Shown: one piece after another, positions 3,494 to 64,000 of the stretch | Layout: every line of letters starts with the position of its first letter | Position numbering within the stretch: the first letter of the stretch is position 1 | Source: Anaerolineales bacterium | GTDB lineage: Bacteria > Chloroflexota > Anaerolineae > Anaerolineales > UBA4823 | Reading direction: 5' to 3' | Length of the DNA: 64,000 nt | NCBI GenBank assembly: GCA_003105035.1 | Contig: PQAL01000004.1 | Coordinates: 1 to 64,000 of the forward strand | Notes under the pieces: model-generated | Database searches by the model: none | The model's input: the letters and a program-made list of their open reading frames with translations, nothing else | Told to the model about the DNA's origin: nothing | Program-made: the position numbers and the translations under genes

Positions 3494-3503
3494 GGAAGGC
3501 ACA

Positions 3504-4637
3504 ATGAACTTTCCCATGGTATTGGAATGGCTTATCAAAGGCTTTGTGTGGGCACTGATCCTGCTGGGCGGTTTTGCCTACCTTACGCTCTACGAGCGCA
3601 AGGCACTGGCGCGCATCCAGTCTCGCATCGGCCCCAACCGCGCCGGGCCATGGGGTATCCTCCAGCCTATCGCGGACGCGGTCAAGCTGATCTTTAAAGA
3701 GGAACTCACCCCGGCCAATGTGGATAAATTGATCTTCCTGCTCTCCCCGGTCATCACGGTGGTGCCGGCGGTGGTAATCACGGCGGTGGTACCCTGGGGG
3801 CCCAGCCTGAATATTTTCGGCTACCACCTGGATCTGTATATCGCAGATATCAATGTGGGCGTGCTGTACATCATGTCGATCGCCTCCATTGCAGTGTATG
3901 GCATTGTACTGGCAGGCTGGTCTTCCAATAACAAGTATGCCATGCTGGGTGGTTTGCGCTCGTCGGCGCAGATGATCAGTTATGAGATCGCCCTGGGGTT
4001 GTCATTCGTCTCGGTGGTCCTGTTGGCTGGTTCAATGAACATGCTCGATATCGTCCACCTGCAGGGCGGATACTGGTTGAACTTCATTCCCAAGTGGTTC
4101 GTGGTGCTCCAGCCGGTCGGGACGGCCATCTTCCTGATCGCCACCCTGGCGGAGGTCAACCGCGCCCCCTTCGACATGCCCGAAGCCGAGCAGGAACTGA
4201 CCGCCGGGTACCATACCGAGTACTCCGGCATGAAGTTCGCCCTGCTGTTCATGGCCGAATATACCAAGATGATCGCCATCAGTGCCATCGGGGCCACCAT
4301 CTTCTTTGGCGGCTACAATGGTCCTTTCATTAATAAGTTTCCCTGGCTTGGACCGATCTACATCTTCATCAAGATCCTGCTGCTGCTGTTTGGAATGATC
4401 TGGGTGCGGGCGACCTTCCCACGCATCCGTTACGACCGCCTGATGGCTTTTGGGTGGAAAGTACTCCTGCCGCTCTCGCTGGCGCTGGTCTTCATCACGG
4501 CGGTGGGGATCATGCTGGGGCAGCAGGTGAACCCGGGATTGGTATTCATCATCCCGGTGGCATCCCTGCTGGCAGGCGGTGTGGCGGTTGCGCTGATCGA
4601 CCGAACGCTAAGGAGAAAAGACTATGCGCGTCGTTGA
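3504..4637 (+). CDS. nuoH: NADH-quinone oxidoreductase subunit H
   Basis: Membrane subunit of complex I, 377 residues with about eight to nine hydrophobic segments. It has the family signature [21 protein letters not shown] near the N-terminus and the acidic loop [20 protein letters not shown], which in this family lines the quinone channel. It links the peripheral arm to the proton-pumping arm. It starts 10 bp after nuoG and its 3' end overlaps nuoI by 14 bp, as expected in one operon. Confidence 0.96.
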
Positions 4638-5142
4638 GCCTGTGGTGGAACTGGTTCGGGGCATGTGGACGACGCTCCGGATGATGTTTGACAAACCGGT
4701 CACCATCCAGTACCCGGAAGAGAAAAAACCCGTCAAGCCCCGCTTCCGCGGCCGGCATGTCTTAAAGCGCTACGAGAATGGCCTGGAAAAGTGCATCGGC
4801 TGTGCCCTGTGTGCCGCTGCCTGCCCGGCGGATGCCATCTTCGTCGAGTCAGCCGAAAACACTGATGAACGGCGTTTCTCACCCGGCGAGCGCTATGCCA
4901 GCACGTACGAGATCAACATGCTGCGCTGCATTTACTGCGGTTTTTGTGAGGATGCCTGCCCTACCGAAGCGATCGTGCTGGGTGACCAATATGAGCTGTC
5001 CTTCACCGACCGGCGGCAATCGATCTACCCCAAGGAAATGCTGATCGAGCCTGTTCCGGCGGGCGGGAAGCCCACCCCCCAGGAGACCGAGCCGGGCCTT
5101 TACACCCGCTCGGTGCCTGAAATGAAAGATCCACAAGATTGA
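4624..5142 (+). CDS. nuoI: NADH-quinone oxidoreductase subunit I
   Basis: 172-residue 8Fe ferredoxin-type subunit carrying clusters N6a and N6b. Two complete motifs are visible, [12 protein letters not shown] and [12 protein letters not shown]. It accepts electrons from NuoG and passes them toward the terminal cluster and quinone. The start is supported by an AAGGAG Shine-Dalgarno at about 4610-4615, inside the end of nuoH. Confidence 0.96.
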
Positions 5143-5987: not shown

Positions 5988-8057
5988 ATGGAAACTTCTG
6001 GTCTGTTCTCGCTTGTACCCCTGATCGTCTTCCTGCCGGTGGCGGGCTTGCTGGTCAACATGATCTTCGGCGGCCGCATGAGTGAAAAAGGCATCGGCAC
6101 AGTTGCCAGCCTGGCTTCCGGGCTTTCATTCGCAGTGGCTGTCCTGCTGGGCATTGCGCTATGGACCAGCAGCGGCGAGGCTGTGGTGGTCCCATTTGCC
6201 GACTGGCTGCACATTGGTGACCTGAACGTTGCCTGGGATTTCCGGGTGGATACACTTTCGGTGGTGATGATGCTGGTGGTCTCCGGCGTTGGCACCCTCA
6301 TTCATATCTATGCCATCGGTTACATGCATGAGGATGTGCGCTTCAAGAACGATCCGGGCCGCTACCGCCGCTTCTTCGTGTTCCTGAACCTGTTCATCGC
6401 CATGATGATGATCCTGGTCAGCGGCGACTCCTACCTGATGCTGTTCGTCGGCTGGGAAGGGGTGGGCTTGTGCTCCTTCCTGCTGATCGGCTTCTGGTAT
6501 GAGATGGATACACTCGGCAGGCCTTCGTGGGCGAATTCCAATGCCGCCAAAAAAGCCATGATCGCCAACCGCATCGGTGACTTTGGTTTTCTACTGGCAG
6601 CCTTCACCATGTTCTGGTGGTTCAAGAGCCTCAATTTTACCGAGGTCTTCGAGCAGGCCGCCACCATCCCTTCCAATGTGATCCTAATGATCACGCTCTT
6701 CCTGCTGGTGGGCGTGGCAGGCAAGTCAGCCCAGATCCCGCTCTACGTCTGGTTGCCAGACGCCATGGCTGGCCCAACACCGGTTTCCGCCCTCATCCAT
6801 GCCGCCACCATGGTAACCGCCGGCGTGTACCTGGTCACCCGCTCCGCCCCGCTCTACATGCTTGCTCCACAGGCACAAACGGTGGTGGCGTTGGTGGGAG
6901 GCATTACCGCCCTGTTTGCCGCCACCATTGCGGTGGGACAGTATGACATTAAGAAGGTGCTGGCTTATTCCACCATCTCGCAGTTGGGGTTCATGGTGGC
7001 TGCGGTGGGCATGGGAGCCTATGTGGCCGGCATGTTCCACCTGGTGACGCATGCCTTCTTCAAGGCTTTGTTGTTCCTTTCAGCCGGCTCCGTCATCCTG
7101 GGCATGGAACGCGGGCATCACCACCTTCCGCACGAAGCCCATGGCGAACACCACGAAGAGGTCTTTGATCCCGGCGACATGCGCAACATGGGCGGCTTGC
7201 GCAAACAAATGCCTGTCACCTTCTGGCTCTACCTGGTGGGTGCGTTGGCCCTGGCGGGCATCTTCCCCTTGGCGGGGTTCTGGTCCAAGGATGAGATCCT
7301 GGCAGATGCCTTCCACCAATTTCCCCTGGTATATGCCCTGCTTAGCGTGGCAGCCTTCCTGACCGCCTTTTACATGGGCCGCCAGGTCTGGATGGTCTTC
7401 TTTGGAAAAGCCCGCCATGCCGCGGCCGGGCATGCCCAGGAAAGCCCCAAGGTCATCACCATCCCGCTCATGGTCCTGGCGGGGTTGGCGATCCTGGGTG
7501 GGGCACTGAATTTGCCCGGGCTGCACAGCCTGACCCTCTGGTTGGAACATTCCATCGAGGGCATCGAAGCCGGGGAATTCAACTTCATGGTGGCGGCCGT
7601 CTCCACCGGGCTGGCTTTGCTGGCCATCTTCCTGGCATGGCTGCTTTACGGACGCAAGCCACTGGCGCAGGGAGAAAAGGATCCGCTGAAGAAAATGCTC
7701 GGCCCGCTCTTTACCGTCTTCGAGCGAAAATACTGGGTGGATGAAGCCTACAATGCTCTCATCCTCGACCGGTATGTGGATCTTTCCCGCTTCCTGGCAA
7801 ATGTGATCGATGGAAGATTCTGGCATGACTGGGTGCATGACAAGCTCATCGCCGGTACCTACAACTGGTTTGCACGCACCTTCCTGGACCTGCGCGTGGA
7901 CCAGCAGTTTATCGATGCCATCGCCAATGGTCTGGGGAAGATCACCCAGCGCGTTTCAGGTGGTTTGCGCCGCCTGCAGAATGGCTTTGTACGCAGTTAT
8001 GCCATGGCGGTGCTTGCAGGTGTTGCCATCATTATTGGCTATCTATTGTTGAAATAA
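5988..8057 (+). CDS. nuoL: NADH-quinone oxidoreductase subunit L
   Basis: 689-residue distal antiporter-like subunit. The core motif KSAQIPLYVWLPDAMAGPTP and the following HAATMVTAGVYL hold the lysine and histidines of the proton channel. The long C-terminal region corresponds to the lateral amphipathic helix and final transmembrane helix. A histidine-rich loop (residues about 374-390, GHHHLPHEAHGEHHEE) sits between helices. Five bases separate it from nuoK. Confidence 0.96.
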   Translation: METSGLFSLVPLIVFLPVAGLLVNMIFGGRMSEKGIGTVASLASGLSFAVAVLLGIALWTSSGEAVVVPFADWLHIGDLNVAWDFRVDTLSVVMMLVVSGVGTLIHIYAIGYMHEDVRFKNDPGRYRRFFVFLNLFIAMMMILVSGDSYLMLFVGWEGVGLCSFLLIGFWYEMDTLGRPSWANSNAAKKAMIANRIGDFGFLLAAFTMFWWFKSLNFTEVFEQAATIPSNVILMITLFLLVGVAGKSAQIPLYVWLPDAMAGPTPVSALIHAATMVTAGVYLVTRSAPLYMLAPQAQTVVALVGGITALFAATIAVGQYDIKKVLAYSTISQLGFMVAAVGMGAYVAGMFHLVTHAFFKALLFLSAGSVILGMERGHHHLPHEAHGEHHEEVFDPGDMRNMGGLRKQMPVTFWLYLVGALALAGIFPLAGFWSKDEILADAFHQFPLVYALLSVAAFLTAFYMGRQVWMVFFGKARHAAAGHAQESPKVITIPLMVLAGLAILGGALNLPGLHSLTLWLEHSIEGIEAGEFNFMVAAVSTGLALLAIFLAWLLYGRKPLAQGEKDPLKKMLGPLFTVFERKYWVDEAYNALILDRYVDLSRFLANVIDGRFWHDWVHDKLIAGTYNWFARTFLDLRVDQQFIDAIANGLGKITQRVSGGLRRLQNGFVRSYAMAVLAGVAIIIGYLLLK

Positions 8058-8122
8058 TCTCATTATTTGAACCCCCCATCGCCCGGGCTGTGGAGGTGGT
8101 TCAAAATGACTGAGGAGTGAAC

Positions 8123-9628
8123 ATGAACTTAATTACCAATCCCCTCATCCTGGTGACATTCTTCCCACTGCTGGGTGTCCTGGCACTGCTCTTTGTCCGC
8201 TCGGATCGCAAGACTCTCATGCGCTGGATCAGCCTGCTGGTCTCCCTGGTCACTTTTGGTCTGTCGATCTGGATGCTGACGTTGTTCGACAAGGCCAACC
8301 CAGAACTGCAGTTGGGATTTAACCTGCCCTGGATCCAGGTGGCAAACTGGAATATCAGTTTCATCATGGGCGTGGACGGTCTGAGCATCCTGCTGGTGTT
8401 GCTTACCACCTTCCTGACCCCCATTTCCATCCTTTCCACCTGGACTGCGGTCGAGGAACGGGTGAAAGAGTTCATGATCTTCTTCCTGCTGCTGGAAGTG
8501 GGCATGTTGGGCGTTTTCCTGGCGCAGGATCTGTTCCTGTTCTACATCTTCTGGGAATTCACCCTGGTGCCGATGTACTTCCTGATCGGCATCTGGGGCG
8601 GACCGCGCCGCATCTACGCCGCCATCAAGTTCTTCCTGTACACCATGGCTGGCTCGATCCTGATGCTGCTGGCCATCCTGTGGCTGGGCATCAACCAGGG
8701 TACCTTCAGCGTACCCGACCTGATCAAGAACGGCGGCATTCCCGGCAACATCCAGCTTTGGTTGTTCCTGGCTTTCGCAGCTGCCTTCGCCATCAAGGTA
8801 CCCATGTGGCCGCTGCACTCGTGGCTGCCAGACGCACACGTGGAAGCCCCCACCGCCGGTTCTGTGATCCTGGCGGGTGTACTGCTGAAGATGGGCACGT
8901 ATGGCTTCCTGCGCTTCAACCTGCCTCTTTTCCCTGATGCGGTCAAGCAAGCCGCACCCTGGATGGCTCTCCTGGCAGTCATTGGCATCCTGTACGGCGC
9001 GGCTGTCTCGTACGCGCAGAAGGACATCAAGAAACTGGTTGCTTATTCATCGGTCAGCCACCTGGGCTTTGTAATGCTGGGCTTGTTTGCCCTGAATGCC
9101 CAGGGGGTGGAGGGGGCCATCCTGCAGATGATCAACCACGGTTTGAGCACGGGTGCGTTGTTCCTCCTGGTGGGCATGGTGTACGAGCAAACTCACACGC
9201 GGGAATTCAGTGTGTACGGTGGATTGTGGAAGATCATGCCGGTGTATGGCACGGTGATGTTGATCGTGGCCCTCTCATCGATGGGCTTGCCTGGTCTGAA
9301 CGGTTTCATCGGCGAATTTGCGATCCTGCTGGGTGCGTTTGGCTCCAAGGCCATCGGCTCACCCTGGTTTGCCGGGTTGGCCGCGGCGGGTGTCATTCTG
9401 GCGGCTGTGTATATCCTGTACATGTTCCAGAAGATGTTCCTGGGACCCGAAGGCTCGATCGTGGAAGATGTGAAGAAGCACGGGCATGCCCTGCGCGACC
9501 TGAATTTGCGCGAAATCGTCACCGTCCTGCCTCTTCTGGTCTTCATCTTCTGGATTGGCCTGTACCCCAAGCCATTCTTTGACCTGATCGCTCCTGCAGT
9601 AGAAAAACTACTGATCGCCTTTCATTAG
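8123..9628 (+). CDS. nuoM: NADH-quinone oxidoreductase subunit M
   Basis: 501-residue antiporter-like proton-pumping subunit of complex I. It carries the signature FAIKVPMWPLHSWLPDAHVEAPT and the glutamate-containing helix near residue 140 (FYIFWEFTLVPMYFLIG). ATG at 8123 is preferred over the in-frame GTG at 8117 because GAGGAG at 8112-8117 is correctly spaced only from the ATG. A 65-bp gap separates it from nuoL. Confidence 0.95.
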   Translation: MNLITNPLILVTFFPLLGVLALLFVRSDRKTLMRWISLLVSLVTFGLSIWMLTLFDKANPELQLGFNLPWIQVANWNISFIMGVDGLSILLVLLTTFLTPISILSTWTAVEERVKEFMIFFLLLEVGMLGVFLAQDLFLFYIFWEFTLVPMYFLIGIWGGPRRIYAAIKFFLYTMAGSILMLLAILWLGINQGTFSVPDLIKNGGIPGNIQLWLFLAFAAAFAIKVPMWPLHSWLPDAHVEAPTAGSVILAGVLLKMGTYGFLRFNLPLFPDAVKQAAPWMALLAVIGILYGAAVSYAQKDIKKLVAYSSVSHLGFVMLGLFALNAQGVEGAILQMINHGLSTGALFLLVGMVYEQTHTREFSVYGGLWKIMPVYGTVMLIVALSSMGLPGLNGFIGEFAILLGAFGSKAIGSPWFAGLAAAGVILAAVYILYMFQKMFLGPEGSIVEDVKKHGHALRDLNLREIVTVLPLLVFIFWIGLYPKPFFDLIAPAVEKLLIAFH

Positions 9629-9690
9629 CCACACATGAACGACGTACTCCTTTCTAATCCTTCCCTGTTCACCTGTGGTTCGGAGCATCC

Positions 9691-11151
9691 ATGACGCAAT
9701 CCGATCTCTTCACAATTTTACCGATCCTCGTGCTCATCGTCTGGGCATGTGTGTTGCTGCTGGTGGACTTGTTCATACCCAAGGGCAGTAAAAAATGGAC
9801 CGCTTTGCTGGCTGCGGTCGGCCTGGCAGGCGCCCTGGGCTTGAACCTGGCACAAGCCGGGCAGCAACTTTCCGCCTTTGGCGGCATGGTCGTGCTGGAC
9901 GGCTTTTCATCCTTCATGACCAGCCTGTTCCTGGCAAGCGGGCTGCTGGCGGTCGCCCTCGCCTACGGCTACCTCAAGCGCATGGGGCTGGAGCGCGGTG
10001 AGTATTATGTCATCCTGATGTTCAGCCTGTCGGGAATGATGTTAATGGCCCAGGCGACGGACCTTTTCGTGGTGTTCCTCGCCCTCGAACTTTTATCCAT
10101 TCCACTCTATGTGCTGGCAGCTTTTGCCCGCTCGCGCTCAGATTCCGAAGAAGCCGGGCTGAAGTATTTCCTGCTGGGTGCTTTTGCCACCGGGTTCGTG
10201 GTCTATGGCATCAGCCTGGTTTTTGGTGCCACCGGGCACACCTCCCTGGCCGGGATCGTCTCGGTCATCCAAACCCCCGAGACTTTCAGCGGCACCTTCA
10301 ATCCGCTCCTGCTGACAATCGGCGCGGCGCTGATCCTGGTGGGGTTCAGTTTCAAGGTGGCAGCCGTCCCCTTTCACATGTGGACTCCCGACGTTTACCA
10401 GGGTGCGCCCACCCCGGTGACGGGCTTCATGGCGGTGGGTGCCAAGGCGGCTGGTTTTGCCGCGTTGTTGCGCATCTTCGTGGCTGCCCTGCCATCATTG
10501 AGCGCCGACCTGGTGCCGGTGCTGTGGGGTCTGGCTGCCCTCACCATGCTGGTGGGCAACCTGGTTGCCATTTCACAAACCAACATCAAGCGCTTGCTGG
10601 CCTACTCCAGCATTGCCCATGCCGGTTATATCTTGATGGCTTTTGTGAACTTTGGGAACCCAAAAGTGGGACCGGATGCAGTCGCCTCAGCCCTGTTCTA
10701 CCTGCTCACCTATGCCATCACCTCCTTCGGAGCCTGGGCAGTGGTCATTGGGCTGGAAAAACAGGATGGAAAAGGTCTGGAGATCAGCGACTTCGCAGGC
10801 CTGGGACGCAAACGCCCCCTTATGGCGGCTGCCATGACCATCTTCATGCTCTCACTGACCGGCATGCCGCCCACGCTGGGCCTGGTGGGTAAGTTCTACC
10901 TGTTCCGCACTGTGGTGGAAGGCGGTTACATCTGGCTGGCGGTGATAGGCGTGCTCACTTCGCTCATCTCGGCATACTACTACCTGCGGGTGGTGGTGAC
11001 CATGTATATGCACACGGGTGAGCCTGAAACCAAGCGTGAATTCTGGCTGGACCTTACCTGGGAACTGGCAGCCCTGGCGACGGTGGTGCTTAGTTTCGTG
11101 CCGGCGGCGCTCTTCGCCTGGGCAAGCGGTGCGGTACTGACAATATTCTAA
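9691..11151 (+). CDS. nuoN: NADH-quinone oxidoreductase subunit N
   Basis: 486-residue antiporter-like membrane subunit, last gene of the nuo operon. Motifs seen: FKVAAVPFHMWTPDVYQGAPTP (lysine and histidine of the channel) and the helix LFVVFLALELLSIPLYVL with the conserved glutamate. It ends 17 bp before a factor-independent terminator, which marks the operon end. Confidence 0.95.
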   Translation: MTQSDLFTILPILVLIVWACVLLLVDLFIPKGSKKWTALLAAVGLAGALGLNLAQAGQQLSAFGGMVVLDGFSSFMTSLFLASGLLAVALAYGYLKRMGLERGEYYVILMFSLSGMMLMAQATDLFVVFLALELLSIPLYVLAAFARSRSDSEEAGLKYFLLGAFATGFVVYGISLVFGATGHTSLAGIVSVIQTPETFSGTFNPLLLTIGAALILVGFSFKVAAVPFHMWTPDVYQGAPTPVTGFMAVGAKAAGFAALLRIFVAALPSLSADLVPVLWGLAALTMLVGNLVAISQTNIKRLLAYSSIAHAGYILMAFVNFGNPKVGPDAVASALFYLLTYAITSFGAWAVVIGLEKQDGKGLEISDFAGLGRKRPLMAAAMTIFMLSLTGMPPTLGLVGKFYLFRTVVEGGYIWLAVIGVLTSLISAYYYLRVVVTMYMHTGEPETKREFWLDLTWELAALATVVLSFVPAALFAWASGAVLTIF

Positions 11152-33009: not shown

Positions 33010-33124
33010 GCCTGGCAGGACGGGATCCCCCGCAGGGAGAGCCGGGTTTCTCGGAAGGACAACCCCCTTCGCTACGCTACGTGGACCTTCGGTGGGACGG
33101 TGTGCGACCAAACGATTATGAGTA
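33010..33124 (-). repeat. tRNA-3'-half-derived repeat, copy B (long, with insert)
   Basis: Minus strand begins CTCATAATCGTTTGGTCGCA, then the long insert containing AAGGTCCACGTAGCGTAGCG and TTGTCCTTCCGAGAAACC, then a variable GC-rich part and CCTGCCAGGC, the acceptor-stem end. It lies 28 bp from the 3' end of the AAA gene. Confidence 0.7.
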
Positions 33125-47042: not shown

Positions 47043-50000
47043 TTATTCCTCATCAAGCTTGGTTATCACTGCTTCAAGAATTTCTGAAAACCCTGATGTC
47101 TGGTGAAGGGATGCTGTGAGGGTATTCATAGTTTTGAGAATGTTCATCAATTCAGGTAACATTATTCTAATTTTCGTATAAAGATCAATATCTTCACGAA
47201 AGCCCTGCATATTATCAGAAGAAACACGCTTCATTACTTCATCAAGTTCATGTTTCTTCTTCTCCCAGTATTCAACATACTGTGCTCTGTCAATCGGGTC
47301 GTAAATCTTTGCGTCGTTTAGTATTATTGGGAATATCCGATCAGCAAATTTTCCATTTTCCGCGATTTGGACTAGTTCGAAGCAGCAGTTTGGAGATTTA
47401 AGGTATTTATCGCTTATCACCAAGATAATCGCATTACCACGACCTATATTTTTCATGAATTTATTAATATCGCCTTTAAACCCCAAATCGCGTTTATCAC
47501 GGATGATATTTATATTTCTTTTTTGAAATTCTTGATCTAATTCATTTACTATTATTTCATTCTCATCACCCCAGGCATATGAAAGAAATACTTCTGCTTT
47601 TTTCATTTTTCCAAAAGTATCTATCAATTGATGTTTGAGCACATCGCGTAATGGCTTGAATCTCTCATGTTCGAGTTGAATAGAATATAGGCTTAAAACC
47701 AAATCAAATAAAGTGACAGCATATGATGTTTCATCACTAAAATCGCCATATCGAATATCGGTCATTTCCACAGGAATAGAAGTACGTAAATTACCTTTTA
47801 ACAATAATGGGATTACTGAGACTTGATTTTGTTTAGGTCTCTCATGATTTTTTTTGATTTCTGTCTTAATATCGATTTCTTTTTTTTCTACCCACATCTT
47901 CTTATAGTCAGGTGTACAAACCATCAGAATATAATCATTTCCATGAATCTGATCTAGATCTTCCAAAACAAATATACCTGCTTCGAGTAAGTCATGAATA
48001 AGATTTTCAACCCAATCAAGTTGGTCGTTGGCGTGACTGATATAACAACGTGGAGGAACACGGTCAATGCGAAAGCTTTTTATCTTAGCGAGATTCATCT
48101 CGTAAATTCTTCGAAGTTTAACAAGTGATTCTTCCCTCTGAACTCTCCTTCCAACTTTTGCGCCAAGAGTTTGGGGAGTATCAATTTCTGGGAGAAACGT
48201 TTTAGCCCCGCATTCATCGCAGAATAAAAATTTATTACCGCCATGTAAATGCTTGATAATTAATGAGTGTCCAATTTGGTGCAATTGGGGACAAAAAACT
48301 GGCGGTATCCGGATTACTTCTACGTCATGATTGAATAAGAACTTCTCAAATAAACCTTGAAAAAGTGCACGGCCATATGTAGGCATGGTTGTGCTGTAAT
48401 ATAACAATAATTCAATTTCTCCCTCTTTCTCGTCAATGAGACGGAAACCACAAATCTCACTTGCCCCCATCTCATATTGTGCTTGATTCTGCCATTGGTT
48501 TATTCGGGTGAACGCGGTGGTATAACCTAGTAAAACTACTAATGAAGCATAAATGTTCTCTGTTCGTCCGCGAACGATAAACAACACATCATCCACATAA
48601 TCAAATTCATCTTTAAGTGGACGTTTTTGTTTTATTAGTGCAGGAAAAATCAGCAGGGAATCATTGCCTAATTTCTCCCTAAAACAAATATCATGGTCAA
48701 GAAAGCGCTGTACAACTGCATCTATCAAGGTTTGTTCTTCATCTTTTGGGAGTCCTTTAATTTCATCAACCTGATAATTTCCTTGAAGGAGTTCCATTTC
48801 ATTTATAGCCCCTAGCTCGCGGGGATTTTTATCAGCTAAAAGGATAACAGATGAAGCTATATTGACCAACAAATCAGGGGCAAGCAATATATACTCAACA
48901 CCGACTGCATTATGTAAGTTTGTGACATAACCATGGGTTTCAAGATGCTCGATTGCCGTTCTTATTTCTGCTGTGGTGAAGCTTATGTCATTATCAATTG
49001 CATGTAATTGCAGTATCAAATCAGAGAAACGAACTAGAACTTTCTTAGAGTCATCGCTCTCTTTGAGAGAAAGAATGTAATCTTTAATGCGTTTGAAAGT
49101 AAAAGTAGTGACTGTTGAAATCATTTGTTCCCAAGGAATTTGGATTTTAATAATCTCCAGTAATGATTCCATGCCTTCCCCAGTCAAGGCACTTGTACTT
49201 ATATAACCTCCACTAATACCATAACGTTGGCAGAACTGTTCAAGATCTTGTTGCGAGAGTATTGGAGCTCCGCGATCAACCCTTGCTCCAATTAAAATAG
49301 ATGGTGGTAATCGCTTTTTCCCTTTCAATTGCTCTAACCAGTATTGTGCCCCCTTTAGAGGATCTTGACGGTTACTTGGGTCAAATACAATTAGCGAGAC
49401 GTTCACATTATCTAAGAAGATTGAGTGGATTTGGCGATATACATGCTGTCCAGCCAAGTCCCAAAGAACAGCTTCGCACTCAGTGTCATCATTGCGTTTA
49501 GTGTTGAGCCTGTTAATTATCCAAAACTGTTGTCCGTGTGAAGATATTTGTTCTTTATATTCACCATGTGAAAGCCACCAACCCACGCCAGTTTTTCCAA
49601 CACCAGTATCACCAACTAAGACGAGTTTGGCTGTTGTATATTGTAGAGAATGAGTAGTCGCTTTTTTAGAAAGGAGAATACTCATGTCTAGATCCCAGAA
49701 TCGGATTAATTTATTTTTCCCAATGGTTGCGATTAAATGTTTCTGGGAATAATTTTCGCCGAAACCGGTACTTAGACTTGTTATTTCTTGAGCAAATATT
49801 GCTGAAATTTCCCAAGTATCAGTACGCCAAATTCTTAATGTATGGTTTCCATCTACCAAGAATAGTAAACGTCCATCAAATGAATAGGAGATTGATCTTA
49901 TTGCTTGTGTAAGGCCTTCAAGAATTTTCGTCATTTGATTATTCTTAACGTCCCAAAGGCTTATATTATTACTAGTGGATCCTATGGCAAGTGTATGACC

Positions 50001-50672
50001 ATCTGGAGACCATGCCAAGCTTGGAATATTTGTGTTCTTATTAAGCTCCTTAATAATCTGTACAACTTTTCTTGTCCTAATATCGCATAGATATACATTG
50101 TTATTTACTGAAGCAGAAATCTGTTTTCCATCAGGAGACCAAGCAATTTGTAAAACGCCCCCATTTTCTTCTTTATTTGTCTTGAGTATATTGATTTTAT
50201 TGGATTCAGTTGCCCACAAGTAAATATAGGGGTCATTATGAGAAAAACAATATGCTATATATTGGCTATCTGGTGACCATGAGATTGATTTCACATTTTG
50301 AGGGAGAGAACTAATCATTTTTAATTGATTTTGGTTATTGATATCCCATCTCTTAATTGTTCTATCCTTTGCTCCAGATACGAGTTGAGAATTATCAGGT
50401 GCCCAGGAAATAGATAATATCTCAGCTTCGTGTCCTTTAAGTATTGACATACATTTTCCACGTCTTATATCCCAAATTCGGATAGCATTATCATTTGCTG
50501 TTGATGCTATATAGTTACCATTGGGTGAAATTGCAATGCAAGTTATTGGGGATGAATGTTCGGACAAGACTTGTCTTAAAGTAATACCTGGAATTGGTGA
50601 ATCACCAATATTTATTTGTTTTCCATCGGGACCATTTTCATGAGGTGAATATTCAAACATATCTTGGGTCAT
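47043..50672 (-). CDS. WD40 - Roc GTPase - COR-like - TIR - TIR protein
   Basis: 1209 residues. Residues about 30-335 are seven WD40 repeats (for example NDNAIRIWDIRRG, LIRFWDLD). Residues 348-515 are a Roc-type GTPase: P-loop GDTGVGKT (354-361), switch II WDLAGQ (404-409), and ARVD in place of NKxD. Residues 520-780 look like a COR-type linker; a Cys/His ribbon (CPQLHQIGH ... CDEC) follows. Residues 873-1000 are TIR/SEFIR-like (CYISHANDQ, ILMVCTPDYKK), and 1025-1150 are a second, clearer TIR domain (VFLSYAWGDE, RDLGFKGDI, NCCFEL with Glu1099 in the catalytic position). A cytoplasmic sensor-effector, most likely for defence or regulated NAD+ loss; that function is inferred from the domain class. 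AT-rich DNA suggests transfer. Confidence 0.85.
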   Translation of the reverse strand: MTQDMFEYSPHENGPDGKQINIGDSPIPGITLRQVLSEHSSPITCIAISPNGNYIASTANDNAIRIWDIRRGKCMSILKGHEAEILSISWAPDNSQLVSGAKDRTIKRWDINNQNQLKMISSLPQNVKSISWSPDSQYIAYCFSHNDPYIYLWATESNKINILKTNKEENGGVLQIAWSPDGKQISASVNNNVYLCDIRTRKVVQIIKELNKNTNIPSLAWSPDGHTLAIGSTSNNISLWDVKNNQMTKILEGLTQAIRSISYSFDGRLLFLVDGNHTLRIWRTDTWEISAIFAQEITSLSTGFGENYSQKHLIATIGKNKLIRFWDLDMSILLSKKATTHSLQYTTAKLVLVGDTGVGKTGVGWWLSHGEYKEQISSHGQQFWIINRLNTKRNDDTECEAVLWDLAGQHVYRQIHSIFLDNVNVSLIVFDPSNRQDPLKGAQYWLEQLKGKKRLPPSILIGARVDRGAPILSQQDLEQFCQRYGISGGYISTSALTGEGMESLLEIIKIQIPWEQMISTVTTFTFKRIKDYILSLKESDDSKKVLVRFSDLILQLHAIDNDISFTTAEIRTAIEHLETHGYVTNLHNAVGVEYILLAPDLLVNIASSVILLADKNPRELGAINEMELLQGNYQVDEIKGLPKDEEQTLIDAVVQRFLDHDICFREKLGNDSLLIFPALIKQKRPLKDEFDYVDDVLFIVRGRTENIYASLVVLLGYTTAFTRINQWQNQAQYEMGASEICGFRLIDEKEGEIELLLYYSTTMPTYGRALFQGLFEKFLFNHDVEVIRIPPVFCPQLHQIGHSLIIKHLHGGNKFLFCDECGAKTFLPEIDTPQTLGAKVGRRVQREESLVKLRRIYEMNLAKIKSFRIDRVPPRCYISHANDQLDWVENLIHDLLEAGIFVLEDLDQIHGNDYILMVCTPDYKKMWVEKKEIDIKTEIKKNHERPKQNQVSVIPLLLKGNLRTSIPVEMTDIRYGDFSDETSYAVTLFDLVLSLYSIQLEHERFKPLRDVLKHQLIDTFGKMKKAEVFLSYAWGDENEIIVNELDQEFQKRNINIIRDKRDLGFKGDINKFMKNIGRGNAIILVISDKYLKSPNCCFELVQIAENGKFADRIFPIILNDAKIYDPIDRAQYVEYWEKKKHELDEVMKRVSSDNMQGFREDIDLYTKIRIMLPELMNILKTMNTLTASLHQTSGFSEILEAVITKLDEE

Positions 50673-54770: not shown

Positions 54771-54816
54771 GTGGGCCCGGCAGGAGTCGGACCTGCGACC
54801 AAGCGATTATGAGTTA
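54771..54816 (-). repeat. tRNA-3'-half-derived repeat, copy H (short; next to integrase)
   Basis: Minus strand: ACTCATAATCGCTTGGTCGC, then AGGTCCGACTCCTGCCGGGC and CCAC. CTCATAA fits a CAT-anticodon loop (tRNA-Met or Ile2-like). It lies 132 bp beyond the 3' end of the integrase gene, where an attachment site would be expected. Confidence 0.75.
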
Positions 54817-54947: not shown

Positions 54948-56084
54948 CTACTGCAAGTCATCATCGGGCGGATTCACGATTTCCTCGATATTTTCAGCCG
55001 CCTCATCCTGCGAATGGGCCATTACGTGCCCGTAGATGTCGGTGGTGACGCTCGCCTTGGAGTGCCCTGCCCGCCTCTGGACCGTGTTGACCGGAGTTCC
55101 GATGTCCAGGAGCAGAGAAATCGAGGTGTGCCGCAGATCGTGGAAGCGGATTACCGGCAGGCCATTCTCCCGAAGGATTTCCTTGAACTCGCGTGATACT
55201 TTGGTCTGATCGAGGTAGGTGCCGATGGTCGTGGTGAAGATCATGCCGGTTTCAACCCATCGATCTCCGGCAGCCGCTCTCAGAGCTTCCTGCCGTTGGC
55301 GGTGCGCATCCAGCATTGCCAGGGCGCCCTTGCCAATCTTGATCGTTCGTCGACCGGCTTTCGTCTTCGTGGGGACAAGCACATACCCCTTACCGGCCTC
55401 GATCTGCAGTTGGCGTTCGACCCTCAGGGATCCTTTTTGCCAATCCACGTCAGTCCACCTCAGGCCGAGAAGTTCGCCCTTGCGCAGACTGGTTGTCAAT
55501 GCCAGGTAGTAGAGTGCCACAAGTGGATGATTTCTGGCTGCTGTCAGGAACGCATGCACCTGTTCCTCGGTGAAGATTTGGAACTCCTGCGTTTCCACCT
55601 TCGGACGCTCTACTGCCTCGACGGGATTGCGACCGATCAGGCCTTCCTTGACCGCCTGCTTCAGGGCGCCGTGCAGAGTCACGTGGACCAGCTGGATCGT
55701 CCGGGCTCCGCGACCTTCCTCCTGCATCCGTAGATACAACTGACGCAGGTGTGATGGAAGGATATTCTGCAGCCGCATCTTTCCAAGTGCCGGGAAGATG
55801 TAATCCGAGCAGTACGATCGATAGTTCTTGACCGTGTTCGGCCTGCGGGACAGTTCCTTGCCGGCGAGCCAGCTTTCCATGAATTGCTCCAGGGAAACCT
55901 GCGTGCCATCGAAGGTCAGGCCGTGCTCGATCTTACCGAGGATGTCCTTGACCCAGTCGCGGCAGGCCTTTTGTGACTTGGCATATTTCGTGACGCGTCG
56001 ACCGCTCAGGCTGACTTGGGCGCACCACCGGCCATCTTTCCGCTTGTAGATGGTGCCTTCGTTGTTGCCTCGCTTTCTAGCCAT
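54948..56084 (-). CDS. Tyrosine recombinase / phage-type integrase
   Basis: 378 residues from ATG 56084, 8 nt after AAAGGAGG (ATG 56090 is too close). N-terminal AP2-like arm-binding segment (GTIYKRKDGRWCAQVSLSGR), SAM-like core-binding domain (RPNTVKNYRSYCSDYIFPAL), and catalytic domain with Arg201 (SLRKGELLGLRW), HDLRHTS (His315, Arg318), GHSKASVTTDIYGH (His341, Tyr351). All catalytic residues are present, so it is probably active. It sits beside repeat H and is followed upstream by an excisionase-like gene. Confidence 0.93.
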   Translation of the reverse strand: MARKRGNNEGTIYKRKDGRWCAQVSLSGRRVTKYAKSQKACRDWVKDILGKIEHGLTFDGTQVSLEQFMESWLAGKELSRRPNTVKNYRSYCSDYIFPALGKMRLQNILPSHLRQLYLRMQEEGRGARTIQLVHVTLHGALKQAVKEGLIGRNPVEAVERPKVETQEFQIFTEEQVHAFLTAARNHPLVALYYLALTTSLRKGELLGLRWTDVDWQKGSLRVERQLQIEAGKGYVLVPTKTKAGRRTIKIGKGALAMLDAHRQRQEALRAAAGDRWVETGMIFTTTIGTYLDQTKVSREFKEILRENGLPVIRFHDLRHTSISLLLDIGTPVNTVQRRAGHSKASVTTDIYGHVMAHSQDEAAENIEEIVNPPDDDLQ

Positions 56085-56227
56085 GTTCATTCCTCCTTTC
56101 TGTGACTTGGTGAGCCCAGGCAGGAGGAACGAGTGGTGAAGCTTGTGCTATTCGACTGGTAAGGTGCTGTCGTACTCTAAAAAGATTGTACCTGATTTGG
56201 TCGCCAAGTGAGCGACCGGGATGGGAT

Positions 56228-56437
56228 TCATTTCTTGCGGTAAGGAAAGGTATAGGGCGGTTCATTTTGCTCTACTTTTCCTTTTAGATACCGTTCCAGA
56301 TCCCCGACTCTCACTCTGATGGCGTTGCCGATCCGAACGGTGGGGAGTTCGCCGCGCTTGGTAAGCAGGTAAGCATAAGAGAGACTTACTCCAAGCATTT
56401 CCGCGACCTCCTTCATTTTCAATAATCTTGCTTCCAT
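56228..56437 (-). CDS. Excisionase-like helix-turn-helix protein
   Basis: 69 residues from ATG 56437, preceded by TTGGAG. A MerR-like/HTH_17 fold: LLKMKEVAEMLGVSLSYAYLL, then LPTVRIGNAIRVRVGDLERY. Small proteins of this type beside integrases usually act as recombination directionality factors. The upstream extension in the same frame has no family support. 143 bp separate it from the integrase. Confidence 0.8.
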   Translation of the reverse strand: MEARLLKMKEVAEMLGVSLSYAYLLTKRGELPTVRIGNAIRVRVGDLERYLKGKVEQNEPPYTFPYRKK

Positions 56438-56594
56438 GGTTTTTTCTCCAATGAACCGTGATGTCATTATATAGAACTGATGTTCGCATGTCAAGCATTG
56501 CGGCTTTCCACTGTTTCTACTGCTTCCATACGTTATACACTTTTGCCAAAATCGGCGATTCTCATGTTTCACCTCCTCACCACATTGCTAAATT

Positions 56595-58856
56595 TCACGA
56601 TTGATGATAAATTGTTCCTGCCGAGCGGCTGGGTGCCCCCCTCACCCAGTTCTCGGCACTTTTTATTGGGAAGAGATACAGGCACTCACTTTCTTTCCCG
56701 CCAAGGATACTTTGCCGGATGGGATCAAGGACAGTCTGGACCGCCCGAGTGAACAAGGTTCGATATCGAGGCACATCCACACTGCGGGGGTCCGGTTGGT
56801 CCGGAATATCCCAGGCATGGACCCCCGATTTTCCAAGCGTAAACAAAAAACGCACCCTCTGGCCGGGACGTACCGTTCTCCCGGCAGCCTGCAGCTGCTT
56901 TACCGCGCGGGCGGCTGGTGAGGGAGAGGAATATTCCCCCACTTCACGCGTCAATCGTTGTGACACCAGCAGCTTCTCCAGGGGAATTTTTCCTTTCCGA
57001 AGCAATGTCAACTGCTTATCAACAAACGCTTGCGCTTTTGGAAGAACATCCTTCAAGCCATCGGCATCGGGAGCCCTGGCCAGGATTTCCAGGATACCCA
57101 TCTGAGTCTCAGTGATAAAGGGAGCAGTATCCCGGCGGCGTGCTTCAATCCCCCTGACCTTGACCGACCCATCCTGGAAGACGCCGAAGTAGCGGTTCGG
57201 AACCGGTACCCGCTCGTTCACACGGGATGGCAGGAAGACGACCCACCGGTAGATCCCATCCAAAGAGATCGGCAGGCCGGTGCGTTCGGTGATCTCTGCC
57301 AGGAGCACCTCATACTCCGCGGGGGTTTTACACCCAGGCTTGTGCACCCACAGCCCATCCACATACATGTGGAGGATCTCAAAATCCATATCTTCTGCAG
57401 CTTCCTTGGCACGCAGCAAGGCCTCCCGACCATAGGCAGTTACTGCCTCGTGCGCTTCAATTCTTCCGAACCGCGCATTTTTATACCCGAGGTATCCAAA
57501 GCAGGTGACCAGCAGCCATTTCTCAGCTGATGCCAGCGCCTGGTAGGTCGGTCGGCAGCAGTCCAGAGGAGGAAGGGTCATGATGAGCGACTTAAGCGCG
57601 ATCCGCTTGTTAAGCAGAGGAGCCAAGGTCATCGGGACAATCCCCGGTTCCCCATCGGCCGGTTCGAGGTCCTTGCCCGCCCGCGGCACTTCCGGAGAGA
57701 TGTTGTACTTCACCATCATGCCGGGATACATCGAAACGAAATCGATCCCGCCCACATCCCGGTGCAGGCCGACGGTCGGCTGGTAGATCATCCCCCCCAT
57801 GTCGGACTGGAGCAGGGCCATGGCCGTCTTGGGAGTCTCGGCCTGGTGCTTGTGCCACGGAATGAGGATCTTGTTCTGTAGGGCGGTGACGAACTGCATG
57901 GACGAGATCCCCGTCCCCGGAGATAGTCGGGCAGCTTCCTGCGCCGGCTGCCGGGTGACACGCGCCATCTCGAGAACGCCGGTCATGCCGTAATCCTTCC
58001 AGAGCATGGCATTCTCACGGTCGATATGCCAGCGGCCACGCAAGTGCACCTGCTGGCCACGATAGACGATCTGGCCATAAGAGAAGTAGGTGTGCTCCTT
58101 CCGCTCCACCACAGCCAGGTCTTCATCTCGGTTCAGGGGCAAGTCGAAGCCATTTTCCTGGGCTATCTTGACCATGTACGGCATCAGCCAGGTGTCACCC
58201 CAGGAGGTCAGGATCAGGTCGGGGTCAAAGCGCTTGATGTCAGCGCGCACTGTCCAGAACAAGGAGGTCTCTTTCTCCTGATTGATCGGCAGGGTGTATT
58301 TATTCCGCCCAAAGGCTATGGTGATCGACTTCGGCGTAGCGCGGGCTGGATCACAGTCCGGCTCGATGGAAAGGATGCGGAGCGGCGCTGGCTCAGGCTC
58401 CAGATCCCAAGGGGTATCAAGCGCCGCAATCCTGGTCACTTTCTCTCCCGCAATTTCAACTTTGCAACGGGCGAGGGGAAAGACATCGAATGCAGCGGCA
58501 TAACGTAAGGCGATGGATATATCGCCGTCGTAGTAGGTCAGGTCAGGAAATTCCTGGACCATGGAACGGAACAATTCATCCAGCCAGGCCGGCTGCGACA
58601 CCTCCACGGACAGGACGGACACCATGCCGCGGAATACATCCTTCCGCTCCTGCCGGGAGAGGGATACAGGAATGGGCTGCACTTCGAGCCATTTCCAGAG
58701 CTGCCGGAGACGCGGAAAAGAGCCAGTGGCATAGACCACAACGGAGAAATCCTGAAAGAAGCGGTGACGCTGCCCATCCTCCCCGATCACCCACAAGGTC
58801 AGGTTGGTTTCGTTCGGGTAAACGTCAAACAGCCAGCCGGTCATCGTATCGTTCAT
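56595..58856 (-). CDS. Divergent family-B DNA polymerase
   Basis: 753 residues. Polymerase motifs: A at GGIDFVSMYPGMMVKYN (catalytic Asp372), B as EKWLLVTCFGYLGYKNARFG (Lys446 kept, the usual NS replaced by TC), C as LHMYVDGLWV; aligned with YADTDG the catalytic second Asp is kept (Asp500) and the first is Tyr. The exonuclease domain (about 155-300) looks damaged: Exo I reads ILSIEPD instead of FDIE, and Exo II is SWGDTWL instead of NGDxFD. Predicted to be a polymerase with weak or no proofreading. It is the last of three coupled genes and overlaps the previous one by 4 bp. Confidence 0.82.
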   Translation of the reverse strand: MNDTMTGWLFDVYPNETNLTLWVIGEDGQRHRFFQDFSVVVYATGSFPRLRQLWKWLEVQPIPVSLSRQERKDVFRGMVSVLSVEVSQPAWLDELFRSMVQEFPDLTYYDGDISIALRYAAAFDVFPLARCKVEIAGEKVTRIAALDTPWDLEPEPAPLRILSIEPDCDPARATPKSITIAFGRNKYTLPINQEKETSLFWTVRADIKRFDPDLILTSWGDTWLMPYMVKIAQENGFDLPLNRDEDLAVVERKEHTYFSYGQIVYRGQQVHLRGRWHIDRENAMLWKDYGMTGVLEMARVTRQPAQEAARLSPGTGISSMQFVTALQNKILIPWHKHQAETPKTAMALLQSDMGGMIYQPTVGLHRDVGGIDFVSMYPGMMVKYNISPEVPRAGKDLEPADGEPGIVPMTLAPLLNKRIALKSLIMTLPPLDCCRPTYQALASAEKWLLVTCFGYLGYKNARFGRIEAHEAVTAYGREALLRAKEAAEDMDFEILHMYVDGLWVHKPGCKTPAEYEVLLAEITERTGLPISLDGIYRWVVFLPSRVNERVPVPNRYFGVFQDGSVKVRGIEARRRDTAPFITETQMGILEILARAPDADGLKDVLPKAQAFVDKQLTLLRKGKIPLEKLLVSQRLTREVGEYSSPSPAARAVKQLQAAGRTVRPGQRVRFLFTLGKSGVHAWDIPDQPDPRSVDVPRYRTLFTRAVQTVLDPIRQSILGGKESECLYLFPIKSAENWVRGAPSRSAGTIYHQS

Positions 58857-59116
58857 GGCTGCCTTGAAAGCACTTCGCCTATCTGCTCCCGGAGCCGCAT
58901 GACTTCCTTGTGCTCTTCGAGCAACATGGAAAGAAGAAACACTTCGAAAGGCAGCGCGTGAGAGGCATACTGCGCCGCCGCCAAATGCTGGCGGGCGGCC
59001 GTGAACAGATCGTCCAATGCGAGTTGATCGCTGCGCCGCAGCGCACGCCGGAAGCGGGCAAACGACGCCTCTTCCTGCATGAAAACTTGCGTGGTGGAAG
59101 GAAGGGTTCGGCCCAT
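58853..59116 (-). CDS. Small protein between RecA-like and PolB genes
   Basis: 87 residues, Ala/Arg/Leu-rich and predicted to be mostly helical (FARFRRALRRSDQLALDDLF, LSMLLEEHKEVMRLREQIGE). It shares one base with the upstream gene (TAATG) and overlaps polB by 4 bp (ATGA), so production is tied to both. No family recognised; a polymerase accessory protein is possible. Confidence 0.6.
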   Translation of the reverse strand: MGRTLPSTTQVFMQEEASFARFRRALRRSDQLALDDLFTAARQHLAAAQYASHALPFEVFLLSMLLEEHKEVMRLREQIGEVLSRQP

Positions 59117-59640
59117 TAGAACAACCTTAGCGGTTCCGGCGCGGGAGCAATCGACTCTACGAAATAAGTATCAGCAGCGGATGCCCGCAGGAGTTCCCAC
59201 AGTTCCTGGGCAGCAGGGCTGGGGACAGCCGGCGGGTGAATACTCACCGCGCCTCCCGCCAGGCGTTCCAAGCGTCTCAAATGTTCGATGCAGGCACGCA
59301 AGATGCGCTTCCGCTCCCCAAGTTGAACAGCTTCATCATAAAAGGTGCTGAGCATATCCAGGACAACAAAAGGCACCTGGATCGCCGGCGTGCTCTCAAG
59401 GAGGGAGAGTACCTGGTAGCAGGTGAAGGCACGCGAAACCGTGATACGGTTCAAGACTTCCGGCCGGCCTCTTGCAGCCCGCGCTACGGTATAAGCATTG
59501 AAACGGTTGCCGCCGTCCAATACCCGTAACGCTCCATGCTCTCCCAACCGGGCAATAGCGGTAAGCATGGTCGTGTTGATGCTGCGTGGGCCGACAAGAA
59601 GAAGCCAGCTGCCAACTTTGGGCTCGATAGAAGTAATCAT
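59116..59640 (-). CDS. RecA/RadA-like ATPase-fold protein lacking a normal Walker A
   Basis: 174 residues from ATG 59640. VLDGGNRFNAYTVARAARG and LNRITVSRAFTCYQVLSLL closely recall the RadA/Rad51 core strand and helix after the Walker B region, and VPFVVLDMLSTFYDE fits a Walker B-type strand. The N-terminal GSWLLLVGPRSINTTMLTAI holds a G..R..NTT sequence where GxxxxGKT is expected, so ATP binding is doubtful. First gene of the coupled trio ending in PolB. Probably a DNA-handling protein of the element. Confidence 0.55.
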   Translation of the reverse strand: MITSIEPKVGSWLLLVGPRSINTTMLTAIARLGEHGALRVLDGGNRFNAYTVARAARGRPEVLNRITVSRAFTCYQVLSLLESTPAIQVPFVVLDMLSTFYDEAVQLGERKRILRACIEHLRRLERLAGGAVSIHPPAVPSPAAQELWELLRASAADTYFVESIAPAPEPLRLF

Positions 59641-59662: not shown

Positions 59663-59690
59663 AAAACAAAAAACACCCTCTCTGGGGTGT
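59663..59690 (-). terminator. Rho-independent terminator of the LuxR-type gene
   Basis: On the minus strand: ACACCC, a 6-nt loop, GGGTGT, then TTTTTTG. It lies 59 bp after the LuxR-type stop and 23 bp before the RecA-like gene start. Confidence 0.8.
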
Positions 59691-59748: not shown

Positions 59749-60165
59749 CTAATATTGGGCTTTGGAACCCCACTGGGAGAAATCCCAGTCCCGAAGCACC
59801 ATTTTTAATTCATCCTTGCTATGGACACGGAATTTCACAAGAACCTGCCGTACATACCCCTTCACCGTATCCGGAGAAACGTGAAGTATTGCAGCGATTT
59901 GGCGGTTCGTATACCACAAGCAGGTGAGGGCGGTGACATCCTTTTCACGGGGGGAAAGCGATTCCCAGCACGCTACTAATGCATCCTGGGTATTCCGTTT
60001 CTCAACCGCATCTGCAAGAATGGCTGCATGAACATCCTCTGCTGATCGCTGCTCCCTCACCGCCAGACTTTCGAGCACTGAGTACGCCTGATCATCAAGC
60101 GCATACATACGACCACTATTACGCTTGAAACCAAGACGAGAGAGGAGGCGCTTAACAGCATTCAT
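59749..60165 (-). CDS. LuxR-type helix-turn-helix protein
   Basis: 138 residues. The C-terminal 65 residues are a LuxR/GerE DNA-binding domain: SLSPREKDVTALTCLWYTNR, then QIAAILHVSPDTVKGYVRQV and LVKFRVHSKDEL. The N-terminal 60 residues are charged and lack a receiver or ligand domain. Its own terminator follows. It probably regulates element genes such as the adjacent RecA-like/PolB trio (inference from position). Confidence 0.8.
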   Translation of the reverse strand: MNAVKRLLSRLGFKRNSGRMYALDDQAYSVLESLAVREQRSAEDVHAAILADAVEKRNTQDALVACWESLSPREKDVTALTCLWYTNRQIAAILHVSPDTVKGYVRQVLVKFRVHSKDELKMVLRDWDFSQWGSKAQY

Positions 60166-60286
60166 AATGCCACAAGATTATATAGAACAATAGTTCTAAA
60201 GTCAAGGTATCAAAATGACTTTTGCGAGACTGATTTATCAGTTGTAGATGCGGCGCGAATCGCACAGCATGACTGGAACGTACCCC

Positions 60287-62639: not shown

Positions 62640-63665
62640 TCAAACAATTGGGAGCTCCGCTTCATCAGCGTGTACTAACCTTCCCATACTGGTCGGTATA
62701 ACGGCACCCTGGTACTGCTCATCAATCCATGCAATGACTTGGTGAGCTGCATCCCGGATGCGTTCCCCACATTCCATCAGTTCCGCCAGGGCGTTCTCCC
62801 CATCCCCCCAATGAGCCAAGTAGCCAAAGGCGACCTCCCCCACATCCAGCCCGAAGTGGTGGAGGATGCAGAAGGCAACCGATTCGGCCTCACACTCGAT
62901 GCGCGAGCGCGGGTTGTGCGCCCGGTATTCTTTGTCAGAGTGCAGGATGGCATGACCCAGTTCATGCGCCAGGGTCTGGGCACGGAAGAGCGGTGACCGG
63001 TTGCCGGCCACAACGATCCTCTTCGCATGACCTTCCTCGTCATAGCTGCAGGCGCCGCCCCAGTTCGGATTGTCCGACTCGATCAGCTCGACCTCGATGT
63101 GGAGGATTTCCTTTGCGAAGGATGCCAGCGCAGCGTACACTCCCTGATCATCCCCTGCAAGGTTCATGTTGATCGGCTCGGGGATGGGAGCGCCGTCCGT
63201 CTGGCTGACATCGAAGGTGTGCCCAATCTTGAAGCCCACCACCTTGTAGCCGGATGCGTCACGGCCGCAATCCCCATCGCCGTCAGGTTCTCTAGCTTCC
63301 CTCGTTCTGTTTTCCTCCTTTCCCTTTTCAGGGGAGGAACATACCGGTACCCGAGCGAGGATCGGGACCAGGATCTCGATTCCCCTTTCCCCTTTGCAGA
63401 CATGCCGCCCCAACTGGTTCCAGGTCCGGTAAGATGCGCACAAGGTGGCCTGCGGGAACTGGAGCAGGATCAATATCAGGTTGTTGAACGAGTACCGGTG
63501 GAAATGAGAGAGAAACTTCAAGTACTCGGTCCACCGACCGCTCCCGACCAGCTGGCTTACACCGTCTTCCAACTTCTGTCGGGCCTGGTCCAACTTCTCT
63601 TGTCGGAGGGCAACAGCTGCCTGGCGTTCTTCATCGTTCATCTCCGACCATTTCTTTGTTTTCAT
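62640..63665 (-). CDS. ArdC-like antirestriction metallopeptidase
   Basis: 341 residues from ATG 63665, 9 nt after AAAGGAG; longer in-frame starts lack this. The N-terminal half matches the ArdC ssDNA-binding domain (SGRWTEYLKFLSHFHRYSFN, NLILILLQFPQATLCASYRT, WNQLGRHVCKGERG). The C-terminal half carries the zinc site TLAHELGHAILH and the downstream Glu in IECEAESVAF. Such proteins protect incoming plasmid or element DNA. An acidic/charged insert (about 145-175) separates the halves. Its presence supports a mobile origin for the right-hand region. Confidence 0.85.
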   Translation of the reverse strand: MKTKKWSEMNDEERQAAVALRQEKLDQARQKLEDGVSQLVGSGRWTEYLKFLSHFHRYSFNNLILILLQFPQATLCASYRTWNQLGRHVCKGERGIEILVPILARVPVCSSPEKGKEENRTREAREPDGDGDCGRDASGYKVVGFKIGHTFDVSQTDGAPIPEPINMNLAGDDQGVYAALASFAKEILHIEVELIESDNPNWGGACSYDEEGHAKRIVVAGNRSPLFRAQTLAHELGHAILHSDKEYRAHNPRSRIECEAESVAFCILHHFGLDVGEVAFGYLAHWGDGENALAELMECGERIRDAAHQVIAWIDEQYQGAVIPTSMGRLVHADEAELPIV

Positions 63666-63690
63666 GGTTTCTGTCTCCTTTTTCTGTCGG

Positions 63691-64000
63691 TCAGGCGGGA
63701 ATGAGTTCCGCTTCCGCCTGAATGAGGATGGATTGACCTCGCCGGTCGTGTTCCACCAGCCGGTCAACACCCTGTTCATGGGCTTCGAAGGCGTACATCT
63801 CCTCACGTTCTTGTGCAGTGAGGGTCTCCTCCAAGAGCCATTGCTCCACGATCAGGTTCTCCCGTGCTGCCTCCCGCGCCAGGCGTTCGGCGGCTGCAAC
63901 CGTGTGAACATGGGGATTGCCCCAGCCGTAGCGGTTGAACCAGCGGGCAGCCAGGCGGGTCCGGAAGGGACCCTGTGCGCACGTATAGAGATGGCCGTGC
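63691..64000 (-). CDS. Hypothetical protein, 5' partial
   Basis: The frame is open from base 63999 down to TGA at 63691, 102 residues seen. It contains FRTRLAARWFNRYGWGNPHV and VEQWLLEETLTAQEREEMYA and ends in AEAELIPA. No family recognised. It lies 25 bp upstream of the ArdC-like gene on the same strand and is probably in its operon. Coding is supported by continuity and composition; the start is outside the window. Confidence 0.6.
   Translation of the reverse strand, partial: HGHLYTCAQGPFRTRLAARWFNRYGWGNPHVHTVAAAERLAREAARENLIVEQWLLEETLTAQEREEMYAFEAHEQGVDRLVEHDRRGQSILIQAEAELIPA

Follow-up and report, generated by a model that had tools for sequence, protein, structure and literature searches.

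In this study, we describe a trio of genes in a 64,000-nucleotide stretch of DNA from an Anaerolineales bacterium of the phylum Chloroflexota (hereafter the window) that very probably constitutes a bacterial PolB2 mutasome, controlled by LexA, serving translesion synthesis and accompanied by a co-induced pair of excisionase and integrase genes (xis-int). With less assurance, we lean towards a wider reading in which the mutasome is mobile and its excision is governed by the same LexA switch, DNA damage inducing both the polymerase complex, whose operon begins with a LuxR-type regulator gene of its own, and xis-int. The features on which these readings rest are collected in Table 1.

Table 1. 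Positions in the window of the mutasome genes, their key motifs and promoters, and the adjoining integration genes
Feature	Position	Strand	Remarks
Operon promoter, TTGACT-17-TATAAT	60177..60205	-	11/12 matches; LexA box GAACTATTGTTC at 60185-60196 in the spacer
LuxR/GerE-type helix-turn-helix (HTH) gene	59749..60165	-	138 aa; Pfam GerE 7e-12; first gene of the operon
Terminator-like C/G-rich hairpin with T-run	59673..59690	-	between the HTH gene and iRadA; weak
iRadA	59116..59640	-	inactive RadA/Rad51-fold protein, 174 aa, without Walker A; C-terminus ...PLRLF
PPB2	58853..59116	-	small protein, 87 aa; MGRT start; hhalign match to haloarchaeal PPB2
PolB2	56595..58856	-	B-family DNA polymerase, 753 aa, without exonuclease residues
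PolB2 D(K/R) motif, D279-R280	58017..58022	-	predicted PPB2-contact loop
PolB2 motif A catalytic Asp372 (GIDFVSMYP)	57741..57743	-	invariant in 35 sequences
PolB2 motif C, Y498-V499-D500	57357..57365	-	first Asp replaced by Tyr, second Asp retained
xis promoter, TTGACA-17-TATAAT	56466..56494	-	12/12 matches; LexA box GAACATCAGTTC at 56474-56485, upstream of xis
Excisionase (xis)	56228..56437	-	69 aa, ATG at 56437; NCBIfam TIGR01764, 40.7 bits (cut-off 28.8)
Tyrosine integrase (int)	54948..56090	-	380 aa; Pfam PF00589 3e-21; PHROG integrase 8e-72
tRNA-Ile(CAU)-like 3' half	54771..54811	-	candidate attachment site; adjoins the integrase gene

Identity of the gene trio

The three genes occupy positions 56595-59640 of the minus strand, with iRadA overlapping PPB2 by 1 bp and PPB2 overlapping PolB2 by 4 bp, exactly as given in the first-pass annotation. 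Their order (iRadA-PPB2-PolB2, adjacent and on one strand) and their spacing agree with the sole gene order reported for bacterial operons of the PolB2 mutasome (PMC11791011). In the predicted 1:1:3 complex, PolB2 is joined by iRadA and by three copies of PPB2, and the published traits of the polymerase are a vanished exonuclease site, the usual loss of the first Asp of the DxD motif and a D(K/R) motif (PMC11791011). A Pfam search of the trio gave a match for the polymerase only (DNA_pol_B, E 8e-22). A haloarchaeal plasmid (NZ_CP119792) encodes Cdc6, two hypothetical proteins and a PolB in succession, and its products were matched by hhalign to the window-family alignments of iRadA (E 2e-7), PPB2 (E 3.5e-18) and PolB2 (E 3.4e-84). 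Judged by these sequence features, the window trio is a bacterial copy of the iRadA-PPB2-PolB2 mutasome of PMC11791011, a system of an already-known kind.

The first-pass annotation had treated the three genes as one module, a view that our analysis supports. Its description of this module as one for replication is unsupported, since the sequence features are all those of the PolB2 translesion mutasome (PMC11791011; Dpo2 in PMC7390963 and PMC8764526) and since the genome's LexA box lies within the promoter. By analogy with these systems, the trio would fit a damage-tolerance polymerase rather than a replication module. That annotation made no mention of the HTH gene upstream, of the LexA boxes or of the tRNA 3' halves.

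The RadA-fold protein and the small subunit

A profile built from 24 relatives of iRadA matched RadA with an E value of 1.7e-7, and the AlphaFold2 monomer model (pLDDT 93) returned RadA/Rad51 matches in Foldseek (E 8e-8 versus RadA); by both measures iRadA is nearer to RadA/Rad51 than to RecA. The 174-residue protein consists of the core only, the ATPase site and the N-terminal domain being missing, and a search for Walker A (GxxxxGK[ST]) in iRadA and 82 homologues found no instance. It had been described earlier as a RecA-like protein without a standard Walker A, suggestive of a structural partner or one not driven by ATP, and the lack of an ATPase site is supported here. The consensus C-terminus of iRadA resembles the beta-clamp motif (QLxLF), the window protein ending in PLRLF and its relatives often in QLxLF or QPxLF. 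A beta-clamp motif in iRadA or PolB2 is frequent, though not universal, in PolB2 mutasomes (PMC11791011).

The N-terminus of PPB2 reads MGRTLPSTTQ and contains the MGRT arm motif reported for this protein (PMC11791011). An MG[RHNK]T start was found in 73 of 84 PPB2 relatives, the other 11 of which may include truncated or mis-called starts, and the haloarchaeal PPB2 of NZ_CP119792 begins with VGRT, from a GTG codon. A sequence search with PPB2 found no relative whose structure has been solved.

The polymerase

The PolB2 family profile matched the structures of archaeal PolB from Pyrobaculum (E 1e-77) and Pyrococcus (E 4e-73). The AlphaFold2 monomer model (mean pLDDT 86.7) aligned to archaeal PolB over 642 residues with a Z score of 26.6, an rmsd of 4.0 Å and 17% identity. 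Motif states were read from an alignment of 35 sequences, the window protein and 34 relatives, in all of which motif A (IDFVSMYP) and Asp500 of motif C (YVDG) are invariant. Based on the alignment of the family profile with the Pyrobaculum and Pyrococcus polymerases, Tyr498 takes the position of the first Asp of DxD and Asp500 that of the second. Motif B is KWLLVTCFGYLGYKNARFG, a sequence conserved across the family. The altered motif B and the motif C with only its second Asp, both noted in the first-pass annotation, were thus upheld by the 35-sequence alignment.

The acidic residues of exo I, II and III are missing from PolB2 in this alignment as well as in the alignment to the Pyrococcus and Pyrobaculum polymerases; exo II, for example, is WGDTWL where canonical enzymes have NGDNFD. 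The absence of these catalytic acids agrees with the loss of the exonuclease, and probably reduced proofreading, proposed earlier. Homologues with intact exonuclease and Walker A motifs would have pointed to misaligned residues; the homologues carry the same changes, so the active-site changes are not alignment errors. In the D(K/R) motif, described for PolB2 in PMC11791011, Asp279 is invariant in the alignment and the second position varies in Chloroflexota.

The Dpo2 polymerase of Sulfolobus islandicus, which has lost the same Asp, is an active extender polymerase with robust activity and no proofreading (PMC8764526), and it is the source of damage-induced mutagenesis in this archaeon (PMC7390963). 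A 2026 survey places bacterial G2/PolB2 among the exonuclease-inactivated translesion enzymes (PMC12926913).

LexA boxes and promoters

The exact box GAAC-N4-GTTC occurs at two sites in the 64-kb window, both inside the boxed promoters of Table 1; chance alone would give about one such site in a stretch of this length, so the weight rests on where the two lie and not on how many there are. These boxed promoters are the two best of the region (11/12 and 12/12 matches). The genome's own lexA gene, on contig C28, is preceded by TTGACATC-GAACGAATGTTC-TGG-TATTAT, a promoter of the same layout. A genome-wide search for the box combined with a -10 element returned eight distinct places, and a control with the reversed pattern returned none. 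They comprise lexA, uvrB, an O6-methylguanine methyltransferase-like gene, both PolB2 operons of the genome and xis-int, along with two less clear cases near holA and near a fructose bisphosphatase gene.

The box is also a recurrent feature of related operons, 43 of 70 of which carry an exact copy at the first gene, against 0.37 expected; the count covers -300 to +20 of the first gene and the expectation was derived from box density elsewhere in the same loci. Operons without an exact box mostly have a 9-of-10 match. From the position of the boxes, we infer that LexA would bind both sites in the window and that damage would induce the operon and excision together. A search of the open literature for papers joining PolB2 with LexA and Chloroflexi, or phage with mutasome, found none. 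What is new here is the presence of putative LexA switches before both the mutasome operon and the neighbouring xis-int genes.

A putative regulator gene upstream

In 52 of 73 named Anaerolineae-type loci, an HTH gene is the immediate 5' neighbour of iRadA, and it remains with iRadA-PPB2 where PolB2 has relocated (in the split loci described below). The HTH family also has many stand-alone copies and is not confined to the trio. We infer that the HTH protein regulates the operon. A hairpin was found in the gap between the HTH gene and iRadA at 34 of 53 loci, compared with 27% in shuffled sequences; RNA folding of the window gap alone did not rise above shuffles (z -0.29). The hairpin is a possible, if weak, candidate for an attenuator that tunes read-through.

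Distribution among relatives

PolB2 occurs in 36 of 61 relatives. The genome itself has a second PolB2 operon, on contig C5, at 55% identity. Related loci were collected by alignment query; the 80 named ones belong to Chloroflexota, mostly Anaerolineae, and the named and unnamed sets overlap (L110, for example, is G012), so they are not independent. The complete trio was found in 73 of 83 loci, namely the 80 named loci and three viral contigs.

The nearest PolB2 clade has six members, among them the window, L104 (Anaerolineae bacterium CG2_30_58_95) and the phage-embedded L032 and L102. In L032 (PolB2 at 6498-9136), PPB2-PolB2 follows portal, head-protease and endolysin genes and there is no iRadA, and in L102 (PolB2 at 5995-8280) the polymerase gene follows head genes with neither iRadA nor PPB2. 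From a reading of their genes, L055 and L182 (PolB2 in L182 at 7806-10457) resemble the phage-embedded cases. Such copies hint that a phage may bring its own polymerase subunit into a mutasome of its host.

In two cases HTH-iRadA-PPB2 and PolB2 stand apart (L069 and L034, G012; L070 and L039, G030), and the lone PolB2 has its own LexA box about 50 bp upstream. On the evidence of gene and box positions, the mutasome regulon of G012 and of G030 is split, in contrast to the single operon described for bacteria in PMC11791011. At L106, a divergently oriented gene that we read as a DnaE-like polymerase (1469-4738) adjoins an HTH-mutasome operon.

The probable integrative element

The HTH-trio-xis-int arrangement was found as a whole in one other locus only, L104, which is collinear with the window over 4.7 kb at 70% identity, has both boxed promoters and carries a tRNA-Lys(CUU)-like 3' half after int; the tRNA assignments (Ile CAU, Lys CUU) are our own reading of the sequence. 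With the window integrase as the only query, an integrase gene was found near 1 of the 80 named Chloroflexota loci. By this search, the link between trio and integrase seen in the window is repeated in L104 and is not general. Searches of the 99-kb contig revealed neither a full tRNA nor a right-hand attachment repeat that would mark the right end of the element; an empty site was not found either.

Copies of the tRNA-Ile(CAU)-like 3' half, partly decayed, occur on the minus strand at 33103, 34471, 45965, 46832, 53288 and 54771, and some run into a different common tail (CACCGTCCCACCGAAG). These repeated copies suggest integration at one tRNA site again and again. Other genes in the surroundings include one for a 1209-residue protein with WD40 repeats, a Roc GTPase and a TIR-like domain (47043-50672; weak PADLOC matches), and an antirestriction-type gene (62640-63806) encoding an ArdC N-terminal domain with an M78/IrrE peptidase; ArdC-type antirestriction genes are common on mobile elements. 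To the right of the mutasome element, beyond the window, lies a DISARM-type cluster of DrmC, DrmB and DrmA (PADLOC; L053 10771-16944, contig C4, ~74.8-80.9 kb).

Discussion

Based on these features, PolB2 would act as a translesion polymerase without proofreading, bound to an ATPase-dead iRadA and to PPB2, a small helical protein with an MGRT arm that would reach the polymerase active site. Upon DNA damage, LexA would be cleaved and leave its operator in the promoter at 60177-60205, allowing expression of the HTH-iRadA-PPB2-PolB2 operon. The complex would then extend distorted or mismatched primer ends past lesions by means of the motif A Asp and the one Asp of motif C. The same LexA switch on xis-int would make damage promote the excision of the mutasome's carrier as well. 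Polymerase activity, assembly of the complex and the translesion role would follow by analogy with published work on archaeal Dpo2 and from complex models; LexA binding, induction and co-induced excision are proposals of our own.

The replacement of the first motif C Asp by Tyr, in a family that was formerly predicted to be inactive (PMC11791011), could be taken to mean that the polymerase is catalytically dead and a pure scaffold like its RecA-fold partner. We consider this highly improbable, since all 35 aligned sequences keep both the Asp of motif A and the second Asp of motif C, and S. islandicus Dpo2 is robustly active despite the same loss (PMC8764526). It is at least as improbable that the trio is the replication module of the element, in which a divergent replicative PolB and accessory proteins copy the excised DNA. 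The trio does lie beside xis-int, and close relatives are found within phage structural clusters, but the exonuclease residues are lost family-wide, no gene for a primase, a helicase or an origin-binding protein was seen next to the trio, most relatives are chromosomal and lack an integrase, a second copy resides elsewhere in the genome, and LexA boxes occupy the operon promoters.

A LexA-controlled translesion mutasome could also be a resident SOS operon that came by chance to adjoin the end of an unrelated island at a tRNA hotspot. Such an accident is favoured by the absence of an integrase from most related operons, by the failure to locate a right end and by the decayed tRNA-Ile half repeats scattered across the island. 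We nevertheless regard it as rather unlikely, because L104 has the same order, the 4.7-kb collinearity at 70% identity and the two boxed promoters next to a different tRNA half, and because the nearest PolB2 clade is rich in phages and elements (four of six loci). The preferred reading of a mobile, LexA-switched mutasome has points against it as well: iRadA ends in PLRLF and not QLxLF, the HTH-iRadA hairpin would lower transcription past it from the boxed promoter, neither a right end nor an empty site was found to prove excision as a unit, and the xis-int arrangement is shared by one other locus only.

Several known systems invite comparison. The window operon shares with the published PolB2 mutasome (PMC11791011) the gene order, the MGRT arm, the D(K/R) motif, the lost first DxD Asp, the absent exonuclease and a RadA-fold partner without an ATPase site. 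It differs in its leading LuxR-type HTH gene, in the operator within its promoter, in the adjacent xis-int with the same operator, and in the location of lexA elsewhere in the genome, on contig C28. Sulfolobus Dpo2 (PMC7390963, PMC8764526) is likewise a B-family extender of the same group that has lost proofreading and the first DxD Asp, but it is archaeal and its damage control does not run via LexA. The mobile Pol V homologues rumAB and mucAB (named in PMC11791011) are SOS-type mutasomes with a RecA-fold partner and mobile carriers, whereas their Y-family polymerase and UmuD-type subunit are unrelated to PolB2 and PPB2. Leptospira phages of the LE1 type (KF114878; L183) combine the trio with an integrase gene; their PolB2, however, is only ~30% identical, and our searches found no upstream HTH gene or LexA box at the operon. 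In L183, an SRAP gene follows the trio. Two further groups were ruled out. The E. coli Pol II group (G1 PolB), single-subunit enzymes with intact exonuclease and DxD, was set aside on motifs and on the 17% structural identity. ImuA-ImuB-DnaE2, with its C-family DnaE2 and Y-family ImuB, does not match a B-family polymerase and a RadA-type RecA-like protein.

In summary, our analysis places a recently predicted complex in a testable setting and adds a conserved fourth gene, the LuxR-type HTH gene, to the PolB2 operon. Anaerolineae PolB2 operons with the LexA box of their host are the operator-level counterpart of the published enrichment of lexA in PolB2 neighbourhoods. Close relatives of this mutasome travel with phages and with one integrative element, and such travel with mobile elements would tie stress mutagenesis to the horizontal movement of genes, as is known for the Pol V homologues.
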